Assembly: GCA_030998015.1 (NCBI GenBank)
Contig: JARWMV010000249.1
Coordinates: forward strand, 372,001 to 436,000
Direction of reading: 5' to 3'
DNA from: Ceratorhiza oryzae-sativae
Lineage: Eukaryota; Basidiomycota; Agaricomycetes; Cantharellales; Ceratobasidiaceae
Length of the DNA stretch: 64,000 nucleotides
Under the pieces are notes generated by a model that did no database searches, was not told the origin of the DNA, and worked only from the letters and a program-made list of their open reading frames with translations. This document shows positions 6,727-31,558 of this stretch, in pieces (the first letter of the stretch is position 1; every line of letters begins with the position of its first letter). Both the position numbers and the translations under genes were made by a program.

Positions 6727-7989
6727 GTGGCCAACATACTCAATAAGGTCACGGTGGGAGAAGATCTGTCAGCAGAGCAAAAAGAACAGGTTTGGGGCTT
6801 GATCAGTGAGTATGCCAATATCTTCACCTGCTCTTTATCAGAGGTGCTGGTGGTAGACTTTGCACAGATGAAACTCAACATACCAGAAGGTGCTCAATTC
6901 CCTCAACAGACTGGCCAGAAACAATTGACAGAACTGCAGAGGGAGTGGCTATACAAGACGCTAGACAACATGGAACATGTGAAGATCATTGCCAAAGTCC
7001 TGCAAGAACAAGTCCTAGCAGTCTCACCAATGAACATCATGCCAAAGCCAGGTGGTGCAGAGTTACCAAGCTTGGCCTCTCTTTGGCAAATGGCCAACAG
7101 GCAATGTTGGCTTTATGACCTGCCTGTTATGTGGCTGGATGTCAAGGTAGAAGGACCAGAGGATGCACCTGGCAAAACTGAGACTAAGTACCATCTTGTT
7201 CATAACTTTGCCCCTGTTAACAAAGTCACTCAGCTATGGCCATTCCCAATGGGAGACTTGCCAACTATGCATCACAAGGTGGCTGGTCATCAATGGATCT
7301 TGGTCATGGATTTCCTCACTGGCTTCAACATGATCTCAGTAGCCCCAGGGAGCATCCCATACACAGGTTTTCATGTTGACAGACAAGGGTACTATGTTTA
7401 TTTGCACATGCCATTTGGTCTGAGCAGTGTGCCAACTACCTTCTGCAAAATGGTCTCAGCAGCACTCCACAACTTGATCGGAAGTGTGTTGGAGGTGTGG
7501 ATGGACAACATTGCTACTGCCTGCAATGACTTTGAGATTGGACTTAATAACATTTGGTTGATCTTTGCTAAGTGTCATGCACACAGTCTCTCACTTTCTC
7601 CTGCTAAAACCATTTTGTTCATGTCAGAGGCCTGCTTTGCAGGAGCACTGTGTTTGTCAGAAGGCATAAGGCCTGATCTATCAAAGGTTCAAGCAATCCT
7701 GGAGTGGCCTGAGCCCAGAACAGCACTGGATGTTCTCAGCTTCCTTGGGTGCATTGGTTCCTACAGTTCCAAGATCAGAAACTACACCTGCATTGCACAG
7801 CCTCTCTCAGACCTTATGAGAGACATACACCCACCACAGATCAACACCTTGAATAATAAACAAGAGTACAAGTGCATGCTCAAAGACACACAAATTACAC
7901 TCAGCAAGGAAGGAAAACAAGCTTTTGCAACACTCAAGATGATCCTTATGAGTGACACTGTCACACAAGCACCCATCTACAATGGCTGA
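6727..7989 (+). pseudogene. gypsy-2 reverse transcriptase
   Basis: A 420-codon open stretch covering most of a Ty3/gypsy RT. It shows the LVHNFAPVNKVT motif, VMDFLTGFNMI, MPFGLSSVPTTFCKMV, and the thumb/connection motif with LSFLGCIGSY. The catalytic YxDD box reads WMDN (about 7498-7509), so the second metal-binding Asp is Asn and the Tyr is Trp; catalysis is very unlikely. The reading frame ends at TGA 7987-7989, where RNase H follows directly. Confidence 0.85.
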
Positions 7990-8400
7990 CCCTTCATTGT
8001 GACCACAGATGGATTGAAGTATGGGTTTGGGGCTGTTCTGTCACAAAACTTCAATGTCACAGACAGCAACAGGATTAGTCACTAGGTGATGTATCCAATT
8101 GCATTTGCCTCCAAATGAACCTCACACACCAAAGAAAGGTACATCCCATTCTTGCTTGAATTTGTGGCACTCAAGTTTGGGCTCAACAAGTTTGACAATA
8201 TCATATTTGGCCAATCAATTGAGCTTGAAACTGACTGCAAGGCCCTAGCAGATCTGCTTGGCAACAACAAGCTGAACTTGATGCATGAACATTGGCAGGA
8301 GTCGATTATTGCCAGGCAGATAGTGGTGGTTCAGCACAAGCCTGGAACTGAAAACTGGGTGTGTGATGCACTCTCTTGCATGTACAAGTCTTGCCCAGAT
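7990..8400 (+). pseudogene. gypsy-2 RNase H
   Basis: Continues RT after a stop. It carries a TDG...GFGAVLSQ element (the TDAS box of retroelement RNase H with G for S) and a later ELETDCKALADLLG region. Two further stops lie around 8085 and 8116. Confidence 0.75.
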
Positions 8401-8479
8401 GACAACACAAGTCCAGGTGCTAGTGAAACAGTTGACCCTGGCTGGGAATCAACTCAGGGCCTAGTGAACAACATGTACC

Positions 8480-9606
8480 ACCTACTCCATGACTCCAAGT
8501 TGGCCCAGCTCATCCAGCACTTCAAGAACAACCCTTTCTTCACCAATATCCTATTACACCTTGTGTTCGATGTGCCAGAGGACAACAAACTGGAATTGGC
8601 AGAGGAAGAATGGGCTAGGAAGAGGAGAGCACATCATGTGCAAGGATACCTCATCAAGGAGGGTAAACTATGGCTGTTAAAGAACAAAGCAGGCACAAAA
8701 GTTGAGTGTATCCTGTCCTCTGAAACTAAAGCTCTTGTGCTGGTGGTTCACTTGGTAGGTGGCCATTTCGGATGCAACATGACCATACTTGCCCTCCAAA
8801 CACAATTCTTCTGGCCCAAGATGTGAAGGGATGTGATCAAGATGGTTACTTCTTGCCCATGCTGCAAAAATTTCGGCCCATGACTACTCTCAGCACAGAT
8901 GCAACCCATTACACAAGCATGTCCCTTCAATCTGCTTGTAGGCAACTACATCTCACTCCCAAGCAGGCACAGTGGGTTCAAGACTGTTCTCATGCTTGTG
9001 GACATGTATAGCTGCTTCATGTTCACTTTCCTGCTCAAAGGACCTGGTACTGGCAAATTCACAGTCAACATGTTAACAAAGATATCTGACATGCTGCTCA
9101 CACCTTGTTTGTTTATGGCTGATGGCAGGTCCCACTTTGACTGCAATGAGGTCCAAGATTGGTTGAATGCTTGTGAGGTCCAGCTGCTGAAGATACCACT
9201 GTACACACCTTGGGCCAATGGTCTAGCTGAAGGATCAATCAAGCTACTCATCAGCTGCCTCAAAGCCCTGTGTACCAATACAGTTGGCAAATCACCAGAA
9301 GAAGATGGAGACCTGTCTGGCACTCCTGCAGCCTGGCCCAAATATCTTGCTACAGTGACAGCTCAACTGAACGACCAGGTACTCTTATCCCTCCAGTACA
9401 CACCATGTGAGTTACTCACCAGTCAGCCCCAAGGCGAACACAGAATCCAGCTGAGTCATCCAACCTCAGATCCGAGCAATTCAGAGGTCAAAATCAACAT
9501 GGCGCTGACATTTGCTCTCAGACAGGATGCTTACACTCAAGCTCTGGACTACGCCAACCAGTGTAAACATGCATTTGACAAGCATATACAACCAGTCGTG
9601 TTCTGA
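8480..9606 (+). pseudogene. gypsy-2 integrase
   Basis: HHCC zinc domain around 8745-8870 (HLVGGHFGC ... FFWPKM ... CPCC) with an internal TGA at 8824-8826. In the core, the first catalytic Asp position reads NYISLP rather than DFI-LP; the second Asp (MADGRSHFD) and the Glu (GLAEGSIKLL) remain. Inactive by motif loss. Confidence 0.8.
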
Positions 9607-10418: not shown

Positions 10419-10630
10419 TGTCACAAGTCCTGCTCCTGACATGTTATTGATTTTGTTTGTGATATGCCTCTTGTGCTTCCTTGATTTTGCCTGCTTTTTG
10501 CAACATGTACTTGGGCATGTGCTTCCCTCTTTGCCTACTCTTGCTTGCCCTTCCCTATTCTTGCTTATACTTGCTTACACTTGCTTCCTGTCACTTGTAC
10601 TGTGTTAGCTGTTGCTTGTGCTTATGTGTC
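10419..10630 (+). mobile_element. Solo LTR-X inserted in gypsy-1 gag, 5' part
   Basis: Starts TGTCACAAGTCCTG and continues at 21127-21291, which ends AATTATGACA. Flanks read TTGGG (10414-10418) and TTTGG (21292-21296), a 5-bp duplication with apparently one change, since gypsy-1 gag is contiguous across it. The chromovirus 10631-21126 interrupts it. Confidence 0.75.
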
Positions 10631-11412
10631 GTGACCCTCTGGAGGCTCCCTTGTGGAGCACTTAAGTAGTGGCTGCGTTTACGGTTTGGTGCTATGCAGT
10701 ATGTATTTAGCGTTCTAGTTACAGTGTTTGCTATGGTCTATGGTGGTTGACAAGATAAAGCAAGCTGAGGTGTCCAGTCTTGCTTTATCCTCCTTATATA
10801 TACCTGTGGCTGCGGTGGCTGCGGACGTATGATCTAAGCACACTCCGCAGTAGGTGTAGGTTATGTACAGTACTACAGGTTAGGTAATTGTTTGTCTTAA
10901 GTTTGTGCAGCTCCAAATCTTATAGAGCCGCGCAAGGTCCGAGGGGTAGGCGCTGAGGTCACGTGATCCTGCCGTAAGCGCCGAGATCACGTGACAACTC
11001 GCTCCTTGCTCCAAGTAACATGGGAGAGAAATGCTGGAGTGAGTTCAGGGTAACAACCATAAGCGCTGAGGTCACGTGACCCTTCTGTAAGCGCCAAGAT
11101 CACGTGACAACTTGCTCCTCGCTCCAAGTAACAAGGGAGAGAAATGCTGGAGCGAGTTCAGGGTAACCACCGTAGGCGCTGAGGTCACGTGATCATGCTG
11201 TAAGCGCCAAGATCACGTGATAACTCGCTCCTTGCTCCAAGTAACAGGGGAGAGAAATGCTGGAGCGAGTTCAGGGTAACCACCGTAAGCGCCGGCTAAG
11301 CGCCGAGGTCACGTGACCTTGTTTATGGCTTGTTCCGCTTAGGAAAAATGCCATAAATCTGTAGAAATATTTGGTTGTTTTGTTATGTCCGTTTGACAGG
11401 TCATAACATTAT
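10631..11412 (-). repeat. Chromovirus 3' LTR (782 bp)
   Basis: Pairs with 20459-21126. The 114-bp size difference equals one extra internal tandem unit. Outer ends taken as GTGACCC...AACATTAT from the GTGTC duplication and polypurine tract; they do not follow simple TG...CA ends, so each may shift by a few bases. Confidence 0.88.
10947..11287. repeat. Three ~113-bp tandem repeats in the LTR, each with two CACGTG sites
   Basis: Units begin near 10948, 11061 and 11174, each reading (A)GCGCTGAGGTCACGTGA ... GATCACGTGA ... CTCGCTCC ... GAGTTCAGGGTAAC. The other LTR has two units (20775-21001). CACGTG is the core of bHLH E-box sites, so a promoter or enhancer role is possible; that is inference. 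Confidence 0.85.
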
Positions 11413-11424
11413 CCCCCCCTTTGG
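11413..11424 (-). other. Polypurine tract of the chromovirus
   Basis: On the minus strand the run CCAAAGGGGGGG immediately precedes the 3' LTR, the expected plus-strand primer site for reverse transcription. Confidence 0.75.
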
Positions 11425-11473
11425 ACATGTCTTGGGGGACCTCGAGACATGGTTTAGTTCCTTATGCAAAAGG

Positions 11474-11600
11474 AATCTCATGCACCAAGGAGGTTAAGGG
11501 CGCTGGACTTGAACCAACGACCTTTCAGCTGATTCAGTATTGTTCGATGAGGTCAGGCTGAGTCAGGCTAGACCCCTTAACCTCTCCGTTACATGAGATT
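11474..11600 (-). ncRNA. tRNA-like hairpin between Rep and the 3' LTR
   Basis: Outer arms AATCTCATG (11474-11482) and CATGAGATT (11592-11600) and inner arms AGGTTAAGGG (11491-11500) and CCCCTTAACCT (11573-11583) are inverted repeats. On the minus strand the 3' half forms a perfect T-arm, GTTGG-TTCAAGT-CCAGC, next to acceptor-like CCCTTAACC. GGTTCAAGTCC resembles a Pol III B box, and a T-rich run follows. I cannot fold a normal D-arm or anticodon arm, so this is a tRNA-like structure or tRNA relic, not a proven tRNA. Confidence 0.45.
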
Positions 11601-11717
11601 GTTTTTCTTTTCTTTGTTGTGGAGGTTATTTAGGGGTGAGGATTTGTCTGCTTCTTCTCAGAAAGCCCCAACCGTTTGGATGGGCATAGCAGAAGTTGTA
11701 CAGTACCATAAATTATT

Positions 11718-13004
11718 CTAAGGGAATACAAAGAATGGCTTTCCTCCTGCATACACCCATTCCACATTTCTTGATACCCATAAGTCCCCTTCTTCCCCCT
11801 CTATGTCCAACCAACATTTCATGATTGCTGACCGGCTATTTCCCAGAATGACTGTTGGCCGTACCTTCATCAATTTCACGTGCGTGTACCTGCCTGTGAA
11901 GTCCACCTCGTACTGGCTCAGGGCCTTGAGCGAGTACTTCCTGTTCGACTGGACCATGTCATCCAGGATCCAAATGTCGGCATCTTCCGACAAGTTGCCC
12001 ATATTCCACACATTGCACATCCGGCTGTGGCAGCCCTTGGATCGTGCATATGCCGTTTTCCCCATTCCAGTTTCTCCTTCTATCACCAGGATGCGATGGC
12101 GCACCCCTCTTCCCTTCTTCTCGACTTCCTCAGCAAACCATCTGTCTGCTCAGTCGATGTGCTCCCGGTCTTCCGGGACCTCTAACTCCACAGGGATTGC
12201 AGGCATGCAACCCTGGTCTTCCTTGTATGTGTACTTGGCATATGCTCGTACCAAGTTCCACGTCGTCACCATCTGGAGGGGGCGGAGGCGCTTGAACGCC
12301 TGGTAGTACTCCTGTTTTGTTGCTGAGGCAACAATCTCCGTCCCATCCTCCAGGTCTGCCTCCATCCTTGACCTTTTTCCGCCCTTTCCCTTTACCAAAA
12401 TCTCCTCCAACCTTTCCAAGGTCAGGTCCCCTGCCATCAGGTCCTCTATCTCCTCGCCATTAGCTCCAACGTCCTTCCAAAGATAGTTGAAGGCTTCCCT
12501 TGCTGGGTTGCCTCCTGGTCCGTCCTTGAGGTCCTTCGGCAGGATGTTGGGGTGTTGCCCCTCGAAGTCCCAGAACCAGGTGTTCTGGGTGTTCCAGCTG
12601 CCCTTCCGCTCCTGACTGATGGAGAGGGCGTGGACATGGAGGGGCCAGGCTGGGTCGTAGTTTGGTTCCTCGGGGTTGTGGTGTTCCACCACCGCCAAAG
12701 TCGCCCAATGATTTGGCCGTTGGCGGCAGAACGCCTTGTATCAGGCGACGAGCCCACTTGAGGGCTGATCGTGTAGCTTCGACCAGGTCAGCAGCACCGC
12801 CCTGGTCTGGATGCGGAACCGAGGGGCCGGCGCGGTTTCAGTCAGCTCTTCGGACCCTCGATCCGTCGGCGTAGGCCGCATAGAAGCGGGTGAGGGGGCT
12901 CGGCTTGATACCGAGGGCACTGGCGATGGCGACGCCGACCTCTGCCCTTCGCTTGATCCGCTTGGCTGGGGTGTTGCCGCGTTCAATCCATTTCCGCTTA
13001 GCAT
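11718..13004 (-). pseudogene. rep: CRESS-DNA-virus-type Rep (HUH endonuclease + SF3 helicase), two in-frame TGA codons
   Basis: A single minus-strand frame of about 428 codons, broken only by TGA at 12743-12741 (codon 88) and 12152-12150 (codon 285). Rolling-circle motifs appear in order: motif I LLTWSK (codons 71-76), HUH motif II HVHA (123-126), motif III YLWK with the nicking Tyr (174-177). The superfamily 3 helicase follows: Walker A GETGMGKT (310-317), Walker B ILDDM (346-350), motif C VILGNS (385-390). Length and order match Reps of circular ssDNA viruses such as gemini- and genomoviruses (known families). A Ser/Pro-rich N-terminus of about 60 residues precedes motif I; a second frame from ATG 13047 overlaps it, so the true start is uncertain. 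The gene lies inside an LTR retrotransposon, in the same sense as gag-pol. Activity as read is impossible without readthrough. Confidence 0.9.
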
Positions 13005-13079
13005 CGTTTACAGTTTTAGAGGTATTTGGGGACTGGGAAGAGAGCATGAGAGTGCGGGTTATCTCGGGCCTTGTGCTTG

Positions 13080-13092
13080 TCTATATAAGCTG
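13080..13092 (-). promoter_or_regulatory. TATA-like box upstream of Rep
   Basis: TATATA (plus strand TCTATATAAGCTG) about 40 bases upstream of the first Rep-side ATG (13047), a plausible core promoter position. Confidence 0.4.
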
Positions 13093-13300
13093 CAAGGTCC
13101 GTTTTGATTGTCACATGACTCCGTCTTGCATTTGTTGTGATCACATGACCTTATTTCGGTGATGACGCATCTCCGAGGGGTGCCCTCCCATCCGTTCCTC
13201 CGCGTCGGCCTTGATCCTCGCTACGCTCGGGGCCTCTCCCTCCCCCACTTGGTCGGTGCCCCCTCTCCGACCCCTCTGGTAGTTAGGGGATAGCGTATAT

Positions 13301-13422
13301 TCACGTGACTAGGCTAGGTCATGTGATTCCTGTGCTTTGTTGTTTGTTTTCTGGCAGGTGGTCACGTGACTAGGCTAGGTCATGTGATTCCCATGCTTTG
13401 TTGTTTGTTTTCTGGCAGATGG
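13301..13422. repeat. Two 61-bp direct repeats with CACGTG in the Rep/antisense-gene intergenic region
   Basis: Units 13301-13361 and 13362-13422 each start TCACGTGACTAGGCTAGGTC and end TTTTCTGGCAG plus four bases, differing at a few positions; a partial third starts TCACATGTC. They lie between two divergent genes and could be promoter elements or iteron-like sites. No TAATATTAC-type nonanucleotide hairpin was found here. Confidence 0.8.
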
Positions 13423-13462
13423 TCACATGTCTGTTGGTGTCACCTGACCAGTCCTTGTTTTG

Positions 13463-14088
13463 ATGTTTGTGCAGGTTATTGTGTTGCACCATGATTTTTT
13501 AATGTTTGTGGTTTTGTTGTTTTCCTTCCTCATCCTGTTCTTTACTATGCGTGTTATTTCCCTTAACTACAATCCCCTTGACTGCACCTGCTGGTCTCTC
13601 CCTGAGGGGGAGTACTGCGCCTACTGTGATGCTGTGTGCGACGCCTCCCTTGAAGACTTCTATCAAGGTGTTGGGGACTGGTTCTTCTGTGGGGTGCCAG
13701 GTATGTGTGTTCGTTCTTTGTCATTCTCACGTAGCTAACTTGTTCTGTAGAAGAGCGCATCCTCCTTGATGGTCAGGCCCATGAGGCCACCCTTGAGCAT
13801 GTCTGGGCGCTCGTTGATCAGGAGTACAAGTCCTTTGAGGAGCGGTCTCACCAGGCTGCTCTTGCCAAATTCTTCGAGGAGGGCTCTGCTCCCTTGTTTG
13901 ATGAGGCTTCGCCCTTTGCAGTGTCTGGTTCTGGGTGTTTCCAGAACTACATGGCCGACTTCCCAGGGGGGGAGGCTCCTTGGCTGCAGCCCACTACCTG
14001 GTCAGTTGTTCAGACCAATAAGAAGGATAACAGGGGCAAGAAGCCCTATACCCAGCCCCTCAAGGGCAAACGTAAAAATAGAGAGTAA
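13463..14088 (+). CDS. Unrecognised Cys-rich protein, two exons, antisense within the chromovirus
   Basis: Exons 13463-13700 and 13751-14088 join in frame across a 50-base intron (GTATGT...CTGTAG) to give 191 residues, or 163 if the in-frame ATG at 13547 is used. The longer form starts with a hydrophobic stretch (about residues 14-29). After the second Met comes a Cys cluster CTCWSLPEGEYCAYCDAVC (a possible metal site), an acidic middle, and a basic tail KGKRKNRE. I do not recognise the family. It is transcribed against the retroelement's genomic RNA, so its intron would not be removed during retrotransposition. It diverges from Rep, the layout of ambisense CRESS viruses, but no capsid feature is evident. 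Confidence 0.65.
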
Positions 14089-14171
14089 AAAGAAATGTAT
14101 TAAGTTTGGTGTGTAAAAGAAAAATAAAAACTCTTATACATTCGGGAGACAATTTGTGGGAGGCAAAGTGG

Positions 14172-14702
14172 TCATATGGGGATTGGTTCCAACAGTGGCA
14201 CCTCCTCCAGAGCTTCGACAAGCTCGTTTTCCCACTGGTCCCAGTCCTGTTTGGCTTCCTCCGCAGCTGGGTCCAGGGTGGGTTCCTTTATTTCTGGCTT
14301 GGCTTCTTCCTCAGCCACGACCAGTGATTCTAGGCTTGATGTAAGGCTTGTCATATCAGTGTCGTAATTGGTGTTTTTGTTTGGGTGCACCTTCACCCAA
14401 TTTCGGAAGTCATTCATGTTTGCCTGCTTTGTCCTGATAGCAGTAAACATCTCATCAGTGGTAGTTGCTTCGAGCAGTCCCACATACGGTGCAGCTGGTG
14501 TCAACTTCCATTCTTCCAGCAATGCCTTTGCCCGGCGCTCCACCTCCCAGTCCCCTCCGTCTGCCATTTGGCCCGTGGCCCTCCTCTGTTGTCTTGCTGC
14601 CTTGGTCACCACGTCGACTGTTGGTCCCACGATATTGTCGACGACATACATGGTGTTCTTAACAAGGCGTTTCTTGTTGTTGGCTTCCGGCTTCCATGCC
14701 AT
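14172..14702 (-). CDS. Unrecognised ORF B, acidic C-terminus
   Basis: 176 codons from ATG 14702. A basic, Gln/Arg-containing N-terminal third is followed by a mixed helical region and a strongly acidic tail (EEEAKPEIKEPTLDPAAEEA...). It overlaps ORF A in another frame, and the two look like one protein split by a frameshift near 14715. It occupies the third-ORF position after pol. No recognised domain. Confidence 0.5.
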   Translation of the reverse strand: MAWKPEANNKKRLVKNTMYVVDNIVGPTVDVVTKAARQQRRATGQMADGGDWEVERRAKALLEEWKLTPAAPYVGLLEATTTDEMFTAIRTKQANMNDFRNWVKVHPNKNTNYDTDMTSLTSSLESLVVAEEEAKPEIKEPTLDPAAEEAKQDWDQWENELVEALEEVPLLEPIPI

Positions 14703-14992
14703 GTCAGGACCCCTAACCTGGGATCCAGGTACTTGTCATCGTCAATCCAGTTCCTTTCATCCCTTAACTTCTTTGGGATGTATACTAGGTTAGCCCCTGG
14801 CAACAGTCGTTCAGCGTACCTCTGGGCGTCTTCCACACTGGAGCAGTACATCCCTGGTTTAGGACGATTTTCCCTGCCAGGGTAGGGTGCTGGCCGCCTG
14901 GTGGTGGGTGGCTGCCGAAGTGGGGCCACCTGATTTTCAGCAAGTGGGGTGTAACGGTTGGGATGTGCGACTGGGTGAGTGACGAAAGGCAT
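14606..14992 (-). CDS. Unrecognised ORF A (probable N-terminal part of ORF A/B)
   Basis: Open from ATG 14992; Pro-rich start, then a globular-looking stretch (CSSVEDAQRYAERLLPGANL ... KKLRDERNWIDDD). A short GT...AG segment at the A/B junction is only 27 bases, too short for an intron, so a frameshift is more likely. Function unknown. Confidence 0.45.
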   Translation of the reverse strand: MPFVTHPVAHPNRYTPLAENQVAPLRQPPTTRRPAPYPGRENRPKPGMYCSSVEDAQRYAERLLPGANLVYIPKKLRDERNWIDDDKYLDPRLGVLTWHGSRKPTTRNALLRTPCMSSTISWDQQSTW

Positions 14993-15078
14993 GTTTTGGG
15001 GTTTCGCAGGTGTGTTGTGGTGCAAGTGAGGTGGTAGAGCAGGCTCTGGCCTTTCTTGGGTATCCTGGATGGCTCTTT

Positions 15079-18000
15079 TTAAAGCTTTCCAGATCCTCGT
15101 TTGGTTCTCTTTGGCCTGCCTTTCGAGTCACCTGAGTGCTGACTTGTCTTGACTGGCATTGGTGCATCTGGTAAGCGCCTTTGCAAGTCATTTAGAACCT
15201 CTTTCATGTCAGCAAACTTGCTGGCACGTTCCATTGTGTCTTCTATTGGGTCGTAGCCCTTCCATCTGATTTGGTAAAACAGCTCGCCATTCCGCCATTC
15301 ATAATTTGCAATGTGGTCCACCTCGTATTCCTCCTCTCCTTTTTCCGTTATGATTGGTGGTGGCTTGGCCTGCCTTCTTCGGAAGTCTTTATCTTCTGTG
15401 AATGGCAAGAGGAGATTTACATGGAATACATTGTGTACACGTATGGTTTTAGGTAGGTCCAGGCGATATGCATGGGATGAGATCTTTTCTGTGATTTCAA
15501 AGGGCCCCCCTTTTTGGTTGTCCAGTTTCTTGGAGGGTCTCTTGGACGAGAGGTTTGTTAGGAGCAGCCAAACCTTGTCTCCTACCTTGAATTCCCTCCC
15601 TTTCTTTTCCATTTGTTGGTGTAATTCCATTGAGGCTCTTGCCTCATCCCATACCTTTTCCATTTGATTACGCATGTTGTCTGCAGCGGTGCCTCAGATG
15701 GTTCTTCTCCCTCTCGGACAACCCATCTTGGGTTTTTTCCATATACTGTTTCAAATGGGGTTTGTCCTGTTGTAGCATTTATGTGGTTGTTATGGCAGAA
15801 TTCGGCAATGGGTAACCATTTTACCCAATCATCTTGTCTATAATTGCAGAAGGTTCTTAAGAACCCTTCTACCCATTGATTTGTCCTTTCCGACAGACCA
15901 TCTGTTTCTGGATGGAAAGCAGTGGAGAATCTGGGCTTTGTCCCAATTCCTTTGTATAGGGCCTTTAGGAATTGGCTGTTAAAGGTTGGCCCTCGGTCTG
16001 AGACAGTGGTTTCTGGGGTCCCGTGATGTCTCCATACTTCCCTTATGAATATTTCTGCCAGTTCTTCTGCATTGGTGCTCTCCAGACATGGTACAAAATG
16101 GGCCTGCCGGGAGAAGCGATCTACAACTGTCAAAATACTGTCGTACCCCTTTGAGACAGGTAATTTGACGATGAAATCATATGCGACATCTGCCCATGGT
16201 TTCCATGGGATTGGTAAGGACTTCAGGGGAGTGCCTTGTTTGTGTCCTTTGCTTCTTTGACACGTTTCACAAGATTCCACGTATCGGTTTACTTGGGCCT
16301 TCATTCCTGGCCAATAGTAATCCCTTGATAGTAATTCTAGTGTTCGGGCTTGTCCCTGATGACCTGCCACTGGGGCGTCATGGCACTCCTCAAGGAGACT
16401 CAACCTCAAGTCCTTGTCATCTGGGATGTAGAGCCTATCGTCATACCTTAATAGGCCCTCCTTCATTTCATACCGTCTAAATTCCTTCTGTACTGAGGGC
16501 GGTAGTTGTTCTTTATTTGCCACACTCAGCCTTAAGGATCTGATAGATTCGTCTTCTTCCTGAGCTTCTTTAAGCTCTTCCCAGAAATTCCCCTGTACTT
16601 CTGCCATGAAACCTATGAACCTTTCTTCTGGAATCATGATCTGTGGTTCCATAGGGGTATCCCCATGGTCGCTCCTTCTGGAAAGGGCATCTGGCTTCTG
16701 TGAGAGTTTCCCTGGTCTATACACAATCTGAAAATTGAAGGGTGCCAGAGTGAGATACCATCTGGCATGCCTTCTATTCCACATCTGGGCATTTTGCCAG
16801 TACTGGAGGTTCCTATGGTCAGTGTATATCACAATAGGTTCCTCTGTCCCTTCTAAGTATAACCTCCAGTGCTCTAAGGACCTAACAATTGCAAGCAACT
16901 CCTTGTCGTAGGTGTCATAATTTTTCTCTGGTGGGGTGAAGCTCTTCGATAGGAAGGCAATTGGATGCAATCGGTTGTCATCACCCTTTTGGCTTAGTAC
17001 CGCCCCCATGGCCACTCCTGAGGCGTCTGTTTCCAGTATGTATGGCCTGTTTGGGTTTGGGTGGATCAGGACTGGTTCTCTTGCTACTGCTTCTTTGATA
17101 GCTTCAAATGCTTCCTGTTGTTTTCTTTCCCACAGGAATTTGACATCTTTTTGGGTGAGATCTGTGAGGGGTTTGGCTAAGGTACTAAACTTCTCTATCC
17201 ACCTTCTATAGAACCCCACGAAGCCTAGGAAGGCTTGGACTTCTTTTACTGTGTTAGGTTCTGGCCATTCTAGAACTGCCTTTACCTTTTCCTTTTCCAT
17301 CGATATCCCTTCTGGGGATATGACAATTCCAATGAAGCTTACCTCCTTCACAAAGAACTGACACTTGTGTGGTTTGAGGAAGAGGTGGTTTTCCCTCATT
17401 CTTCTTAACACTTCCCTGACATGTTGTACGTGTTCTTCCCTGTTTCTGGAAAACACTAGTACATCGTCCATGTAGATTACCACATAATCGTCTATTATAT
17501 CACGGAACTTTTCCATCATGAACCTGGTAAAGGTTCTTGGTCCTTCTTTTACTCCGAATGGCATGACCAAGCATTCAAACTGGCCTTCTCCTGTCCTGAA
17601 AGCTGTTTTCCATTCGTCTCCCTCTTTTACCCTGATGTTGTTGAACCCCCATCGAACATCCATTTTTGAATAGATGGTTGCATCCTTCAGTCTCTCAATC
17701 AATTCTATTTGGATTGGAAGTGGAAACCTGTCTGGCTTGGTGATGTCATTCATCTTATGGTAGTCGACTACCAACCTAAGCCCTCCATCTGCTTTGTTCA
17801 CATAGAAACAGGGTGCAGCTACAACTGACTGGCTGGGCCTTATTTTCCCGTTTCTTAGTTCCTCCTCTAGGTACTCCCTGAGCGCCTTTGTTTCTGCTGG
17901 CGACATACTGTACCTCTTTGCAGGCTTTGGCAGCTCTGCTCCCTCGATCAGGTCCATTTTGAAGTCTAGGTTACCTCGGTGGGGTGGAAGTTCTCGGAAA

Positions 18001-18491
18001 CCTTCTTCCCCAAATAGGTCTTCAAAATCCCTAAATTCTTCTGGGATTTGTAGGCCTTCACTTGCTGCCCTTGCCTTGATTTTGTTTGGGTATGAGATGG
18101 TAAGGTCTTTCCAATCTATGATAGGTTCTGCTTCTTCAAGCCATTCTTTCCCTAGGACTATGTCTGTGTCACCTAGGGTCATTACATAAAGGGAGCATTT
18201 TAGTGTCTTCCCTTCCACTTCGATGTTTAGTTCTGCCCTTTCTTCTATGGCATCCTTGATTTCATTCCCATCAATGGCCACAATTGATTTCTTGTGTTTG
18301 AGGGGAGTGGTTGGGATCCTTTTTTCCCTTGAATAGGCCTTATCGATGAAGTTGGTTGAAGATCCTGAGTCAATCAGCGTCTTAGCTGGTTCCATGATTC
18401 CCTCTACCGTAGTGTATATTATTGATTGATTACTAGACTTCTTGAGGTAACATACATCTGCGGTAGGGGTTATATTGGGGTCCTCCAACAT
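15079..18491 (-). pseudogene. Chromovirus pol: protease, RT, RNase H, integrase, chromodomain
   Basis: Near-complete polyprotein. Residues from 18491: protease LIDSGSS (39-45), RT with VVDYHKMND and catalytic YMDD (340-343), RNase H TDAS (488-491), integrase zinc residues H703/H711/C740/C743, and core D772, D832, E868 (DD35E spacing). One frameshift near 15690 moves to the frame 15675-15079, which holds the GPY/F-like module and a chromodomain (YQIRWKGYDPIEDTMER). All catalytic residues are canonical, unlike the older gypsy elements here. The chromodomain would direct integration to modified histones (known for chromoviruses). It follows gag and lies upstream of the extra ORFs. Confidence 0.92.
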
Positions 18492-18499
18492 GGAAGTGG

Positions 18500-20336
18500 T
18501 AGGACCAATTAGTTTTCCGACTCAGAGCTGCTTTCTTCCTCAACTTGTCTGCTGGCCTTCCCTTGTATCTTAGCTTTGTCTAGGTCCACTGGCCTCACAC
18601 TCCTTCAGGACATGCCCTGATTTACCGCATTTGATACAGAGTCCTTCTTTCCTTCGCCTGTCCTTTTCACTGTTTGGTATCCTTACCATGTTGTTGGTTT
18701 GGGTGTTCCCCTGTTTGCCACTGGTCCCTAAAGGCTTGTTCCCCCCTTGTTTGTATTTCGCTGGTGTCCAGGTTGAATTTGATGAGTTGCTGGTCCTTGT
18801 ATTCATTTTCTGGTTTGCAAACTGCATGTCATCCATTTTGCAGGCAAAGTCGATTAATTGATCTAAGGTATATGATGGACCTTCAGCCTCATTTGCCAGT
18901 ACTTCAATCCTTAAGATCTCTTGTCGTACTTCGGGTTTTAACCTTCCCTGAATTGGTCCTTGAGGGCTTCCTGGTTCCAGTCTACCTCTTGGATCAGGAT
19001 CCGGAATTGGGTAGCATAATCCAATGCACTCTTGGTCTGTGTTAATTTCCTTAGTTTCCGGATGGTCTTTTCCTTTATGACTGGGTCATTAAAAGCATCC
19101 AGGAATCCCTTCCTGAAATCCTTCCAGGATGCAAGAATACCTGTGTGTTCGCCTGCTAGTAGTTTCCGGCGGTAAGGTTGTGCCCAGTTTGCTGCTTCCC
19201 CATCCTCCATGTTCATTAGCACAGCAGATATCTTTTTTCGGTCATCAAAGGCTGATTCGTCATAGTCAGCAAAGAAAAGTTCCATGCTGATTATGAAGTT
19301 CTCTGCTTCCTTCCCCTTTTTCCCATTAAATTTGCTGGGTCTCCCTAGTCTCGCCTCCTTAGGAGTGTGGTTTGCAGCAAGGGTAGGTTGGTTTGCTTGG
19401 GATGGAGGTTCTGTTCGGGGTCTTATTGTGGACTCAGCCTGGAAGGTTCTTCCCAGAAAGGGTGTTCGTACTGGGGAGGCTGAGGGGGATCGTGAGGGGC
19501 TTCCTATGACCACCCTAGTTCTTCCCCTGGTTTCTTCTGTCCTTTCCCTTGGCCTTCCTGCTTCAGTTGTTTTCCAGAGCTCATTTCCTAGATCGGTTAC
19601 CCGTTGTTCTAGTGCGATTAGGATTCCCCTGTGTTTTCAGTTTTCTTCTCTAAGCTTTCGAGCTTTCGCTCTTGCATTCCCAGTACCGGTTTATTTCCAT
19701 GGAGATGTCCTTTAATTCTTTTATCAGGTTCCCCATTTCTGCTTTTAGGTCGTCCTGGTTCTTTGCCACATAGAGGACATTTTTGTTGGATGTTTCCATT
19801 GACCTTACCATCCAGTCCATTTCCTTCTTGTCGGGTTAGTGATATTTGACACTGATTTATACCTGTGATTGCCTTTTCTAGTTCCCTATGATTATTGTCT
19901 CTAAGTTCCTTGAGCCCCGCCCTGATGGCTGTGGCAATGGTGTGAATAGGGTTGGCAGTGGCTATGGCTCCGGGACCTGGCTGGGGTTGTGTCCTTGCCT
20001 CTTCCGCCAAGGCCGTGCCTTGTTCGTATATGGTTCGGGTCATATCTTCTACCTCATCCCTCTCTGGATTTGAGATATCTTCTGGGTCTGGATTTATCAG
20101 GTGAATTGGCGGTTGAGGGCTGCGGAGTGGTATTCCCCCTATTTCCCCTCCCAGGATGGGGGCCCGAGTGGGGTTGGGTTGAGCCACTGGTGTGGGTTTT
20201 GTGGCAACCCCCCTGGCATTCCTTGGAGGGTCTCATCTGGGTTACCTTCAGCCTCTGGGGAAGCAATGGGTTTGGGTGATTGTGGCCTACTATTTGCCAC
20301 TCTGCTTTGAGATCGAGTTTGTGGTCTCTGTGACAT
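18500..20336 (-). pseudogene. Chromovirus gag, several frameshifts
   Basis: Starts at ATG 20336 (MSQRPQTRSQSR), then continues in three other frames: 20187-19618, 19513-18938 (a clear retrotransposon gag core: FNGKKGKEAENFI ... WKDFRKGFLDAFNDP ... YATQFRILIQEVDW) and 18836-18570 with zinc knuckle CIKCGKSGHVLKEC. It ends with an acidic Ser/Glu tail near 18500. Pol begins in a different frame, so normal expression may have used frameshifting, but the other shifts show decay. Confidence 0.8.
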
Positions 20337-20458
20337 AGTTTCTTTATGTTCTCTTATGTATCACAGGAGTTAGCTGGTTTTCTGTGTACTCAGCCCTTAG
20401 TATCTGTGCAGTATACTTATGTTCGCCACTAGTTAAGTTAAGAGCTTGCTTTATAATT

Positions 20459-21126
20459 GTGACCCTCTGGAGGCTCCCTTGTGGAGCACTTAAGTAGTGG
20501 CTGCGTTGACGGTTTGGTGCTATGCAGTATGTATTAGCGTTCTAGTTACAGTGTTTGCTATGGTCTATGGTGGTTGACAAGATAAAGCAAGCTGAGGCGT
20601 CCAGTCTTGCTTTATCCTCCTTATATATACCTGTGGCTGCGGTGGCTGTGGACGTATGATCTAAGCACACTCCGCAGTAGGTGTAGGTTATGTACAGTAC
20701 TACAGGTTAGGTAATTGTTTGTCTTAAGTTTGTGCAGCTCCAAATCTTATAGAGCCGCGCAAGGTCCGAGGGGTAGGCGCTGAGGTCACGTGATCCTGCC
20801 GTAAGCGCCGAGATCACGTGACAACTCGCTCCTCGCTCCAAGTAACATGGGAGAGAAATGCTGGAGCGAGTTCAGGGTAACCACTGTAGGCGCTGAGGTC
20901 ACGTGATCATGCTGTAAGCGCCAAGATCACGTGATAACTCGCTCCTCGCTCCAAGTAACAGGGGAGAGAAATGCTGGAGCGAGTTCAGGGTAACCACCGT
21001 AAGCGCCGGCTAAGCGCCAAGGTCACGTGACCTTGTTTATGGCTTGTTCCGCTTAGGAAAAATGCCATAAATCTGTAGAAATATTTGATTGTTTTGTTAT
21101 GTCCATTTGACGGGTCATAACATTAT
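20459..21126 (-). repeat. Chromovirus 5' LTR (668 bp)
   Basis: Near-identical to 10631-11412 but with two rather than three internal tandem units (20775-21001). Confidence 0.9.
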
Positions 21127-21291
21127 GTGTCACTTGCCATCTTTGCCCCAAATAGTATTTAAGCAAGTCTGTGAAGCGTCTCTGGTCTCCAAAGCACTTT
21201 ACCCCATCTATTCACCCATTTCACTACTCTGAGACTCAGTATTTCCCTCTAGGGATTTCCCCCAGCCATCTACACATCATCAATTATGACA
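21127..21291 (+). mobile_element. Solo LTR-X inserted in gypsy-1 gag, 3' part
   Basis: Continuation of 10419-10630 beyond the chromovirus, beginning with the GTGTC duplicate and ending AATTATGACA. Confidence 0.75.
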
Positions 21292-25345: not shown

Positions 25346-25681
25346 TGTCACAACCAATGACTTGTGGACAGTAGGGATGAGACCTGTGCTTTTGAAAGTA
25401 CTGAAAAAGAGCTCAGGGATGAAGACAGGCAGTCTGAGAGCAGTAAGGGATATGGAATGTCAAGGTGAAGCACTCTGGAGATCACAGAAACTTCACAGAC
25501 TTGCTTAAATACAACGCAGTGCCAATATTGCAAGTGACATGTAACTACAAGCAAGGGCTAGTGTGGGTACAAGGAACAGGAAGTGAATCTGAATCAGTAT
25601 AAGCAAGTGTAAGCAAGACAAGCAGGAACAAGCAAGAATGGAAGCACATGTACTCATGGTGACAACAAGTGTGTGAAAGGC
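25346..25681 (-). repeat. LTR-X, inverted and truncated
   Basis: Begins TGTCACAACCAATGACTTG, the complement of the family 3' end, and is truncated at the LTR B boundary. Confidence 0.65.
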
Positions 25682-26988
25682 TGTTACAGGTCAGGGTACA
25701 CTTGAATATCTAGAGCTTAAGCAAATGTAGATATGTTAGTATACTCTAATTGTACTCAATACTTCTTAGACTAGTGTAAGAAGGCTCAAAGTAGTTGCAA
25801 TGCAATCAAGTAACACTCAAGGTAGTCTTAATCTTTCACAGTGTAAACTGACTAATTTATAGGTATAAAGAGCAACACTACTATGGTCAGGTTCCCTTAA
25901 ATATCTTAAATGTAGTTCAGCCCTAGTTGCTTGGACTAACTGATACTAATCTTAATACTGGACTTAAGCAATAGCTTATGGGATAGATGGTGGGCTGCCT
26001 AATGTGTGTACTTCCTCAGCTACAGGTACTTAGATTTCCTCTAATAGCTGGTACTTACTGTCATGCTCAATCAGGCAATATTGTATCCTTATATATCTCT
26101 GTATGTAAGATACAATGACTCAGACAGTATATAACTAATATGGTACTTTATTCCTCAGTACTAGTTATATAAGAAATCACACACAGACAAGAGAAATAGA
26201 AAGAGAAAAGAAACCAATAACTGGTCTGGGTTGAGTAGAGGAGGGAAGGTGGTCTGGAAGGGCCTCAGAGGAGGTCCTTTTATACCCTGAGGAGGGCATT
26301 CCAGAGCAAAATAGATGCATGCATGCTAGTGCAATCATCAAAAGAGGGTACTGCTATACTTGGGGTACACCCTAGCCCAGTATAGGATAAGAGAGTAAAG
26401 ACAGGATGTGGATTGAAGGCATTGATGCATCTGAGACCTGCTATTGGGTTGTAGATCATATTATCATAGTATATACATGTAATGAACAGAGGCTACATCT
26501 CAGTGAGTCATGAAGTGAGTCAGAGAAGCTTCTGGATCAATTTGGAAGGCTCTCCTGACTCACTGGAGTCATTAGATCTTGATTGATGGTCCAGTAAGAT
26601 TCTAATGATCTTTGGGCCATTCTGGTGTGAGAATCTGGTGGATCATGATAATCTTCAGGCAGCAGATACCGCCAAAGATTAGCTATCGATAGAGCATAAG
26701 GTCACTTTGATAGCATAAGCGGTTGTCAAGATATGAGTGGTGTGATGTTGTAATCAATATCTCCTGATAAGAGGAAATATCGTAACCTCTATATCTCTCT
26801 GAGTTCTTAAGATAAAATCACAATAAAATATGCATTGGAAAGAGGAGATTTTGTACTATTTAATAGAACACAAATAATACAAATTCAGATGCATACAAAT
26901 TCATTTAATTTCAAGAAAATTACAGAGGCATTGCTTGAGGTTGGCAAAGCAGACTAAAATAATAGAAAAATGTTAGTGATCCATAACA
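25682..26988 (-). repeat. LTR B of the 1.31-kb family
   Basis: Reverse complement of LTR A's family (TGTTACAGGTCAGGGTACAC ... CCATAACA). Flanks (AAGGC and AGGAG) do not match, so this is not a simple insertion. Many C-to-T type differences from copies A and E. Confidence 0.85.
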
Positions 26989-28715
26989 AGGAGCTGGAGG
27001 AATTGGTAACAATAACAACCAAAATAATCAACCTCATCTAGACATGACACTTAAGCCTGAAGTGATACCAGAGTATGATGGTGATCCAGATAAATTATAT
27101 GAATGGATAGACCAAATTAGTTTATATATGGCCATGGGTCTAAATGAGAACAACAGGCTCACCCTGACTATCCCATTCAGGTTTACTGGAGATGCTAAAC
27201 AGTGGTGGTATCAGTTCAATGAGGAACAAAGGTTTAGAATGTCTACAGATTAGAATCAGATGAGAGCTTGCTTAATTAATTTCTTTTGGACTCCTAATTG
27301 GATTACCAGGGCTAGGAACAAAGCTTTGGCTGCCAGGTTTAAGGATTCTGTCAACAATAAAGAAACTGCTTGACATGGTTGAAGACTGGGATGACCTTAC
27401 TATCATTGCTGAAGTAGCTAGGTCAGCTCCTACACAATGGAGAACTATAGCCAACCATGAGGACGTTGCAGACTGGTCCACTTATGTGATTAGAATCAAG
27501 GAACAAAAAGATTTATTGCAAGACTGGCCTCACCATGTGAACAACCAAGATACCTATGACACAGTCAAGGAGGTGATCAAAGCTTTGAAGGCTGAAAAGC
27601 ATCAGAAAAATCATGGTCACAAAGCTAGTGCTCATGCAGTAAATTCTTCTAACCCTAAATTCAAGGCTTAGCAGCCTGATAAGTTCAAAGCCTTCAAGAG
27701 GCCCTTCCCTGCAGACAATTCTAATGTTTCTAAACATAAGAAAGGGACTCCTAAAGCTAGAGGAATGAGAGGCTGTATTCATTGTGGAAGTCTTATGCAC
27801 TATGACAAGGAATGCAAGCAAAATAAGTCTAATGCTAACAATGTCCAAGTTTGTTTTGCTGAAACTGCTGAAGCTGAACAAACTGCTTATGTTGAATATG
27901 AAGCTGCTTGTAATGATTCTGACCATGAACCATCTGAAGACCAAGAGGATGAATCTGACTCTTCTAGTTCTTCTTCTGACTTGGATTTTTGATTTATTCC
28001 CAGCCTTTTGAATCTAATGAGACAGAGGACTTGGAAGTAAATGCAGATGACCAGGATATACAGGCTGTACACAATTATAACGCATTAGCAAATCAAACAA
28101 TGGCTACCAAATCATTTTCTATTCAATTATCTACTAGAAATGAGCCTCTTGACCTTAAATTAATCCTGGAGGATAAAACTATTATTCTTAAAGAGGTGAT
28201 GGAACATGCTTCAGGAACTCATTTCTTGGGAACTAAACCTACAGTAGCTATGGCTAGGGTAGGGAATGAAGAAGGCTTAGCAGAAATTACTGTTGACTCA
28301 GGCTCTGATATTACCCTGATTAGGTATAATTTCCTGACTAGCCTGAAACAACCTCCTAAAGATAAATCTGGCCAAAAGATAAATCTTATTCATGTGACTG
28401 GTAAAACTTGTATTACAGGATATGTAGTATTAGACTTAACCTTCCCTACTAAGGATGGACCTGTAAAGATGCAGGTAGAAGCCTATGTAGGGAAAGGAAT
28501 GAAAGTACCTTGCATTCTGGGTAATGACTTTTCTAACCAATATAGAATCTCTTTAGATTGCCTCTCCTCTCCACACTGAATACTCTTTGGCAGCTCTGGT
28601 AGGTCTGCTGAAGTAATTGAATTAGAAACTGAACCAAGATTGTATGAAGCTGGAAATGTATTTGAAGTTTACACTAGACCAGACTTCAAGACAAGCTTAG
28701 AGAGAAGAGCCTTTC
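26989..28715 (+). pseudogene. gypsy-Z gag and protease
   Basis: A third gypsy lineage. The gag core starts abruptly at LTR B (GAGGIGNNNNQNNQPHLD, then EVIPEYDGDPDKLYEWIDQI), followed by a CCHC knuckle CIHCGSLMHYDKEC (27776-27817) and a protease with an intact active site VDSGSDITLI (about 28292-28321). Stops lie at 27253, 27375 and 27671. It ends at LTR C with the RT domain missing. Confidence 0.8.
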
Positions 28716-30027
28716 TGTTATGGATCACTAACATTTTTCTATTATTTTAGTCTGCTTTGCCAACCTCAAGCAATACCTCCGTAATTTTCTTGAAAATAAA
28801 TGAATTTGTATGCATCTGAATTTGTATTATTTGTGTTCTATTAAATAGTACAAAATCTCCTCTTTCCAATGCATATTTTATCGTGATTTTATCTTAAGAA
28901 CTCAGAGAGATATAGAGGTTGCAATATTTCCTCTTGTCAGGAGATATTGATTACAACATCACACTGCTCATATCTTGGCAACCGCTTATGCTATCAAAGC
29001 GATCTTATGCTCTATTGAAAGCTAATCTTTGGCGGTATCTGCTGCCCGAAGATCGTTGTGATCCACCAGATCCTTGCACCAGAATAGTCCAAAGATCATT
29101 AGAATCTTACTGGACCATTAATCAAGATCTAATGACTCCAGTGAGTCAGGAGAGCCTTCCAAATTGATCCAGAAGCTTCTCTGACTCACTTCATGACTCA
29201 CTGAGATGTAACCTCCATTCATTACATGTATATACTATGATAATATGATCTACAACCCAATAGCAGGTCTCAGATGCATCAATGCCTTCAATCCACATCC
29301 TGTCTTTACTCTCTTATCCTATACTGGGCTAGGGTGTACCCCAAGTATAGCAGTACCCTCTTTTGATGATTGCACTGGCATGCATGTATCTATTTGGCTC
29401 TGGAATGCCCTCCTCAGGGTATAAAAGGACCTCCTCTGAGGCCCTTCCAGACCACCCTCTCCTCCTACTCTTACTCAACCCAGACCAGTTATTGGTTTCT
29501 TTTCTCTTTCTATTTCTCTTGTCTGTGTGTGATTTCTTATATAATTAGTACTGAGGAATAAAGTACCATATTAGTTATATACTGTCTGAGTTATTGTATC
29601 TTATATACAGAGATATATAAGGATACAATATTGCCTGATTGAGCATGACATTAAGTACCAGCTATTAGAGGAAATCTAAGTACCTGTAGCTGAGGAAGTA
29701 CATGCATTAGGCAGCCCACCATCAATCCTATCAGCTATTGCTTAAGTCTAGTATTAAGATTAGTATCAGTTAGTCCAAGCAACTAGGGCTGAACTACATT
29801 TAAGATATCTAAGGGAACCTGATCATAGTAGTGTTGCTCTTTATACCTATAAATTAGTCAGTTTACACTGTGAAAGATTAAGACTACCTTGAGTGTTATT
29901 TGATTGCCTTACAACTACTTTGAGCCTTCTTACTCTAGTCTAAGAAGTATTGAGTACAATTAGAGTATACTAACATATCTACATTTGCTTAAGCTCTAGA
30001 TATTCTAGTGTACCCTGACCTGTAACA
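28716..30027 (+). repeat. LTR C of the 1.31-kb family
   Basis: 1312 bp, TGTTATGGATCAC...CCTGTAACA. Flanking 5-mers (CTTTC, GAATG) do not match, and the host element Z lacks its RT palm exactly here. This suggests recombination between two insertions rather than a plain solo LTR. Confidence 0.85.
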
Positions 30028-31558
30028 GAATGTCTAGTGAAAATGGGATAAATTGAAATCCCATACTTTCAAACTAGCTAAGCTAGTCCTAGCCAATGCA
30101 CCAGTTCTCTCTTACCCAATACCAGGGATGCCCTATATGCTTTATACTGATGCATGTGACTTTGGAATAGCTACTATTTTACAGCAAATTCAAACCATGA
30201 AACTTCAGGACCTGAAAGGAACTAGATTTTATGATCAATGTAAGAAAGCTCACCAAGAAGGGTTACCTGTCCCCAGGTTTATCACACCTGACTCCAAAGG
30301 AAAGGTCATCCTGACTGGGGGGGCTGATGGTACTGAAACATTTGACTATGAAGATACCTGGAATGAGGACTTTGAAGAAACTCAAGTACACATAGAGCAA
30401 GTCATTGCCTACTGGTCAAGACTCCTGAAGTCAGCTGAGACAAGGTATTCAGCCACTGAGAGAGGAGCTCTAGGTGTAAGATGATGGTCTAGTGAAATTC
30501 CACATGTATCTTGAAGGAGCTAAAGTTGTAGTAGTGTCAGATCATGCTGCCCTTAAATGGAGTAAGACTTACCAAACTGTGAACAGAAGACTATCTGGCT
30601 ATGGCATAGTAATAGCAGCCTTTCCAGACTTAGTAATAGTTCACAGAGCAGGCAAAGTCCATACTAATGTTGACCCAATCTCTAGACTAAGAAGAAGGAT
30701 TCCTAGACAAGATGGACCTTTAGCAGACCTATCAACCCCTCTTACCTTTAACAATGACACAGAAGATGCCTTGAAGAATCTTTACCAAAAAATAGGTGTA
30801 CACTTTGAGAAGGATTTGCTAGTCCAATCCACTATGTGTGCTTTAACCAATGAGGAAAAGCCTTCCAAAGGTTTTAAGACAAAGTTTAAGGTAAGAAACA
30901 AAGTATATAAATCTAATGTCTCTCTTGCTACATCAGGTTTGAATGAGCTACACATCAGCATTAATGAGTGCAAAGTTAACTGCTTTTATGAAGCATACAC
31001 TAATGATCCCCATTTTGCTGATGTACTCAAGAAACTGCAAGGTGAGTATGATCATCTAAATCCACCTTATAAACAATACAGGATTGGAGAAAATGGTCTT
31101 ATTTACTTTTGCAGAGATGACAATTACAAGTTGTGTGTCCCTAAAGACTTACAGAAGGAAGTAGTAGCTGAAATACATGACTCTCTTCAAGAAGGAGCTC
31201 ATGCAGGCTACCATAGGACCTACAATAAAGTAGCCTCTACCTACTACTGGCCTAAGATGGTACAAGTCATTAAGGAATATGTGTGCACTTGTGATATTTG
31301 TCAAAAGGCTAAGCCTAAAAGACATGGACAAAGAGGTTTTATTCAATCTATTCCAATTCCTTGTCAGCCTTTTGAAGCGTAACCATGGATTTTATAATGG
31401 ATCTTCCTCCTAGCAATGGATTTAATGCCTACTAACTATAGTTGATAAATTAACTAAGTATGCACTCTCTATCCCTTGCAATACTTCTATCAATGAGGAA
31501 GAGACTGCCAAACTATTCCATGCACATATATGGACTGAGCATGGTCTTCCAAGACAGG
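30028..31558 (+). pseudogene. gypsy-Z RNase H and integrase N-terminal half
   Basis: RNase H begins with the family-typical ANAPVLSYPIPGMPYMLYTDA and GIATILQQ (TDA box), then an ERGALGVR segment before a stop near 30482. Integrase follows with HHCC residues (EIHDSLQEGAHAGYHR ... CTCDICQKAKPK) and the first core Asp (TMDFIMDLPP, about 31387-31416). The core is interrupted at 31559 by a hAT-like insertion and resumes at 34586. Confidence 0.8.

Follow-up and report, generated by a model that had tools for sequence, protein, structure and literature searches.

A 64-kb stretch of the Ceratorhiza oryzae-sativae genome (the window; C249:372001-436000 in an assembly of 48.8 Mb) contains, on its minus strand at 10627-21122, a 10.5-kb Ty3/gypsy chromovirus that carries a Rep-like gene between pol and the 3′ long terminal repeat (LTR). 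This copy is probably a decaying member of a long-lived chromovirus lineage with a captured gene module, including a Rep resembling those of circular Rep-encoding single-stranded (CRESS) DNA viruses, that has spread by retrotransposition. The Rep-bearing family is real, widespread in the genome and maintained.

A Rep-bearing chromovirus family in many copies

The Rep-like gene (11718..13004, minus strand) has the orientation of gag-pol and lies after pol and before the 3′ LTR, as stated in an earlier note on this DNA. It is part of a 3.6-kb cargo that extends from the pol stop (15079) to the polypurine tract (PPT; 11413-11422) and comprises open reading frame (ORF) A, ORF B, the Rep-like gene and a tRNA-like stretch. 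The note had treated Rep alone as the cargo; Rep is indeed present, but ORF A, ORF B and the structured stretch are also parts of the module.

As support for a stable Rep-bearing lineage, the note had asked for several copies that are bounded by LTRs and share both cargo and junctions, and such copies were found. The Rep-PPT-LTR junction is identical in all 20 copies read, which are distributed over many contigs. At least 150 places encode the C-terminal part of Rep (143 residues; 150 of 191 candidates scored, all matching), and a DNA search returned at least 40 matches at 90-100% identity (40 of 182 candidates scored, all matching). Both element ends were found in 10 of the 13 copies looked at, and six of these ten are flanked by perfect, distinct 5-bp duplications (CATAA, ACATT, CTACC, AGGAA, CTCGA and TGATT), which indicates separate retrotranspositions. 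The shared junctions, the number of Rep places and the different target duplications together exclude both a secondary insertion in which an endogenous viral Rep entered the window copy only and an assembly join, explanations that we regard as refuted and whose probability is practically nil.

Lists of 150 matches each were compiled for reverse transcriptase (RT) and Rep. Among the matches listed, 127 RT matches have at least 86% identity, and 105 of them are followed by a same-strand Rep within 16 kb downstream, at a distance of 4.5-6.0 kb in 75 of those 105. Rep accompanies two of seven RT matches at 60-80% identity and one of 16 at 45-60%, and 44 of the 150 Rep places lack an upstream RT, again among the matches listed. 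Two observations count against the spread of such a family by retrotransposition: 22 of the 127 RT matches are without Rep among the matches listed, and four of the ten two-ended copies (L003, L007, L014 and L016) are without matching duplications. The missing Rep at the 22 RT matches is perhaps partly an effect of listing; RT match C20, in the 60-80% band and without a listed Rep, does carry one (L074).

Individual copies showed further variation. At C233:46173-52308, the Rep piece is 86% identical to that of the window, RT 97% and the DNA of ORF A 99%; Rep can diverge more than the rest of a copy, and in several copies the divergence climbs from the intergenic region or from the start of Rep. 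Identity to the window element collapses just past ORF A (about 14200) in L041 (C234:139116), which suggests a break or rearrangement. L056 (C16) and L062 (C206) have a common 5′ flank of the element copy and a different 3′ side, perhaps as haplotype or assembly duplicates. Two same-direction Rep copies lie 3.9 kb apart at C143:10585-14953, and further same-direction pairs, with spacings of 2.5 kb and 4.7 kb, occur on C251 and C36. The C143 pair was considered as a candidate product of rolling-circle replication and rejected, as a 911-base slice shows an ordinary Rep end, PPT and LTR.

Identity of the Rep-like protein

All of the motifs named in the earlier note (LLTWSK, HVHA, YLWK, GETGMGKT, ILDDM and VILGNS) are present in a single minus-strand frame at 12794-11835, giving HUH-type motifs I-III, a GRS-like stretch, Walker A, Walker B and motif C. 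The motif names and definitions are those of CRESS Reps, and the GRS-like stretch is WDFEGxHPNI, which lies between motifs II and III. The motifs of the 11718-13004 frame thus stand, but the frame is not open in the window copy, where TGA interrupts it at codons 88 and 285; an uninterrupted frame of 428 codons is present in seven of the 20 copies read (the window copy among them). The catalytic positions (HxH, YxxK and the Walker motifs) are invariant or nearly so across 13 aligned members. A regular expression for the motif series matches one intact natural Rep and none of 200,000 shuffles of the same sequence; in the set of loci scanned, it matched six of 83 open pieces of at least 300 amino acids, all of them Rep. 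The expression is strict, matching five of nine family members tested and missing L019, one of the seven intact own copies.

Profile searches gave matches below threshold. The geminivirus Rep central domain PF08283 matches 12 of 50 members with E values no higher than 1 (best 0.001), before Walker A, and it is aligned near full length, from motif III to Walker A, in seven of the ten members listed individually (E 0.001-0.19); PF00799 matches one of 50 (E 0.23). Other sub-threshold Pfam matches among the 50 members included nSTAND3 (29), AAA_22 (18) and PRMT5_TIM (10). A search of the own genome with PF00799 and PF08283 returned no match, and neither did the controls. The CRESS-type assignment of the note is thus supported in part, by motif order and sub-threshold Pfam matches, but not by any match at a Pfam cut-off. 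On these sequence grounds the gene is very probably of CRESS type, and we infer that its product is a HUH endonuclease/helicase of geminivirus-genomovirus type.

Several results weigh against this assignment. No Pfam family reaches its cut-off for Rep (PF08283, best 19.5 bits; cut-off 24), a PDB sequence search with a single Rep protein gave two insignificant matches (E 1.5 and 2.4), a PDB profile search gave none, and AlphaFold2 models of Rep were poor, with a predicted local distance difference test score (pLDDT) of 35 and 37 from 13 and 50 aligned sequences, respectively. Counting against the proposed lineage as a whole, Rep is broken in the window copy and interrupted in 13 of the 20 copies read.

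A first search gave at least 49 proteins homologous to Rep, and another, with E of 1 or below, at least 60; every one came from a Ceratobasidium species or a metagenome, and both searches scored about 8,000 candidates sharing most words. Three homologs of ORF A were found, two of them from Ceratobasidium. No match was obtained when Rep was compared by tblastn with phages and plasmids, and no relative was confirmed by Rep alignment in viral_contigs, eight of which contain the GRS-like DNA pattern as a pattern match only.

Sister family, Rep-less relatives and selection

A sister family in the same genome (L073/L074), with pol 68% identical, has the order pol-ORF A-ORF B-Rep-PPT-LTR. Compared with the first family, its Rep is 71-73% identical over 343 amino acids and exon 1 of ORF B 61-63% identical. 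More distant relatives are Rep-less: pol pieces are 51-58% identical in L075 and L078 and 42% in L076 and L079, no module genes were found in the stretch read at these four loci, and a G-rich PPT lies within a few bases of the pol end in all four. For L075 only, the start of the LTR after the PPT was checked against a second copy of this LTR, which lies upstream. At L077, a 45% identical pol with its PPT adjoins a Rep-bearing fragment, an arrangement that we tentatively read as two neighbouring elements. Because the PPT directly follows pol in the relatives, the module was either gained after the Rep-less lineages split off or lost in them, and we favour gain. The Rep tree, built from family members only, does not fix in which order the two own families and Ceratobasidium AG-Ba branched, and we therefore claim no dating.

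Between the two families, Rep has a nonsynonymous divergence (dN) of 0.23, a synonymous divergence (dS) above 2 and dN/dS of 0.08-0.11, and the dN of pol is 0.22. These values point clearly to purifying selection on Rep between families. Several figures must be set against this: the between-family dS is saturated, dN/dS within the family is 0.29-0.59 (21 pairs of intact copies), and the comparison of L002 with L051 gives 1.02 (271 codons, 30 changes), while L002 gives 0.34 with L052 and 0.35 with L077. Given the low values between families and the higher values within the family, constraint on Rep is evident over long times but weak or absent among recent copies.

Architecture of the window copy

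The LTRs, PPT, gag, pol and chromodomain expected of a chromovirus were all found. The target duplication had been given as GTGTC in the earlier note; since the LTR runs TGTTATGACC...GGTCACRACA, with GGTCACGACA as the terminus of the 3′ LTR, it is instead CATAA, at 21123-21127 on the 5′ side and at 10622-10626 on the 3′ side. The 5′ LTR (20457..21122, minus strand, 666 bp) contains 2.1 units of 113 bp with five copies of TCACGTGA, and its inner end is approximate, 2 nt short of the usual ...CACRACA; the 3′ LTR (10627..11408, minus strand, 782 bp) contains 3.1 such units with seven copies. Of the 665 bases aligned between the two LTRs, 10 differ, nine of them by transitions, and the alignment gaps amount to 114 columns, about one 113-bp repeat unit. 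In the ten copies with both ends read, LTR lengths fall into classes separated by steps of about 113 bp (about 549-553, 652-666, 761-779 and 892 bp), and such steps also occur between the two LTRs of one copy.

The gag region (18938..20187, minus strand) has a Pfam gag match in piece 18941-19513 and no Pfam match in piece 19621-20187. It is followed by pol (15079..18491, minus strand), in which protease, RT, RNase H and integrase are found by Pfam in this order (15582-18491); the C-terminal part (15079-15675), with SH3-like and chromo domains, is in another frame in the window copy. The chromodomain PF00385 at the integrase C-terminus scores 26.8 bits (cut-off 25.1), and these Pfam matches together identify the element as a chromovirus. 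The PPT, AAAGGGGGGG, is located at 11413..11422 on the minus strand. In the presumed primer-binding region (20431..20456, minus strand), 12 nt are complementary to AGCTTGCTTTAT inside the LTR (LTR position 530), which sits 36 nt downstream of the TATA box TATATATAAG. This complementarity suggests that the element is possibly self-priming in the manner of Tf1.

Within the module, ORF A (14172..15025, minus strand) is split over two frames in the window copy; at 18 of the 30 ORF A loci L021-L050, it stays open as far as the usual C-terminus. ORF B (13547..14088, plus strand) is an antisense gene with a predicted product of 163 amino acids and an inferred intron at 13701-13750. A 542-bp intergenic region (13005..13546) separates the divergent Rep and ORF B and contains six TCAYRTGA sites, a 61-bp repeat present twice, a TATATA about 75 bp upstream of the Rep ATG (by eye) and a conserved non-coding block. 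This block is identical at 101 of 133 aligned bases between L014 and L074 and shows hardly any covariation over 31 distinct sequences, for which reason we claim no RNA or cruciform structure.

The tRNA-like structured stretch (11470..11606, minus strand), recognised by eye on the fold, lies between Rep and the PPT, has a fold z of -5.6 and includes the B-box-like GGTTCAAGTCC. The tRNA-like structure with a B-box-like GGTTCRAGTCC was also noted in L001-L020 and L080 and, by eye, in L073 and L074; an A-U pair in one stem is replaced by G-C in the sister family, again as judged by eye. Neither ARAGORN nor Rfam gave a match to this stretch. No capsid gene was recognised among the module genes scanned.

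Palindromes shared by the LTRs and the Rep promoter region

The element contains 14 copies of the palindrome TCACGTGA, of which 12 lie in the LTRs and two in the intergenic region; the remainder of the window has one. Counts of TCAYRTGA are five in the 5′ LTR, seven in the 3′ LTR and six in the intergenic region, against 0.01-0.07 expected, and none in gag-pol, ORF A or Rep. In the sister family, 4-5 sites are found per LTR region and two per intergenic region; the LTR region of the Rep-less L075 has none. The best form of the 113-bp LTR unit also contains a 10-bp inverted repeat, AACTCGCTCC/GGAGCGAGTT (by eye), and the palindromes adjoining this hairpin would, by analogy, resemble a rolling-circle origin. 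The palindromes are thus located together in the LTRs and near the Rep promoter, and Rep may bind them; their clustering is consistent with Rep action on element DNA, without proving it.

Such a role for the palindromes is countered by several points. The sister-family sites occur only in the forms TCACATGA/TCATGTGA, one site is present in the LTR region of the Rep-less L076, and the pattern is mildly common anyway, with 13 sites in the rest of the window against 3.6 in simple shuffles. No canonical nonanucleotide was found. The palindrome contains CACGTG, a general transcription-factor site, and the sites could equally be promoter elements.

Proposed mechanism and alternative explanations

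We suggest that a Ty3/gypsy chromovirus took up a small gene module between pol and the PPT; the module then spread by ordinary retrotransposition. Tentatively, Rep may recognise the palindromes that its own promoter region shares with the LTRs and may nick or unwind extrachromosomal element DNA (LTR circles), thereby amplifying this DNA or regulating the module; autoregulation and host cell-cycle manipulation are alternatives to such action on LTR circles. Rolling-circle amplification of LTR circles is speculative, its sole support being the palindrome shared by the LTRs and the Rep promoter region. A composite element with two replication modes, in which reverse transcription would be joined by Rep-driven rolling-circle replication of LTR circles that would start from the LTR repeat units with their palindromes and hairpin, seems unlikely at present. 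That the Rep-like protein would instead be autoregulatory or host-acting, either as a repressor or helicase on the LTR and its own promoter or as a push towards S phase, with no rolling-circle replication, is a somewhat doubtful possibility: it would agree with the occurrence of one palindrome in both the LTRs and the Rep promoter region and with the failure to find a recognisable nick-site nonanucleotide, but the near-invariant catalytic positions in the 13 members would be needless for a pure repressor.

It is improbable that the module is passive cargo, captured once, equipped with its own promoter and hitchhiking with a Rep that has no role in the element cycle. The divergent arrangement of Rep and ORF B, the TATA-like box before Rep, the interrupted Reps and the single within-family dN/dS of 1.02 would fit this explanation; however, Rep dN between families is as low as that of pol, and two families and several species retain the module or its genes, whereas a neutral cargo should tend to disappear. 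Very improbable, in our judgement, is a chance motif resemblance in an unrelated P-loop protein. The absence of any curated family above its cut-off, the restriction of homologs to Ceratobasidium and metagenomes among the candidates scored, and the other sub-threshold Pfam families that match as often as PF08283 or more often speak for it, and it is opposed by the full motif series in order, which no shuffle reproduced, and by the near full-length alignment of PF08283 from motif III to Walker A in seven of ten members.

Other features of the window

The window also contains a large inverted repeat at 25681-30028, whose arms measure about 1.3 kb, fall into two blocks and are 96-97% complementary. 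Inspection by eye pointed to additional pol ORFs of retroelement type and to an ORF resembling a transposase, at 6727-9606 (plus strand) and 32980-33699 (plus strand).

Relation to known systems and implications

A fungal DNA transposon that is bounded by terminal inverted repeats (TIRs) and carries a geminivirus-like Rep was reported for Tuber melanosporum (Liu et al. 2011, PMC3198968). The likeness to the present case lies in a fungal genome with many similar geminivirus-like Rep copies in a mobile element; the Tuber element differs in that it has TIRs of 37 bp and ORFs for transposase and lacks an obvious target duplication (PMC3198968). The window element, in contrast, is an LTR retrotransposon with gag-pol, LTRs, 5-bp duplications and a low Rep dN/dS between families; no transposase was found among the element ORFs scanned, and LTRs and gag-pol stand in place of TIRs. 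It shares with Ty3/gypsy chromoviruses the protease-RT-RNase H-integrase order, chromodomain, PPT, LTRs and 5-bp duplications, but differs from them in the 3.6 kb with three genes between pol and the PPT and in LTRs built of a variable number of 113-bp units. Gypsy/errantiviruses are LTR elements that have captured a viral envelope gene, which likewise came from a different class of virus and sits between pol and the 3′ LTR; compared with such envelope-capturing retroelements, the window element gained a replication initiator rather than an envelope. Its Rep resembles those of geminiviruses and genomoviruses in motifs I-III, the GRS-like WDFEGxHPNI, Walker A, Walker B and motif C, but is too divergent for curated profiles and is borne by a retroelement. 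Among the matches listed in a search of the open-licence literature, no Rep-bearing LTR retrotransposon was found by title or abstract start, and the combination is new as far as we searched.

A retroelement in which selection maintains a replication initiator of DNA-virus type would connect two worlds of replication that are usually held apart, and would bear on the origins of composite viruses and transposons. The family enables a direct test of whether Rep acts on reverse-transcribed circular DNA. As a high-copy Rep-like lineage was missed by standard profiles, counts of endogenous Rep in fungi may be too low.

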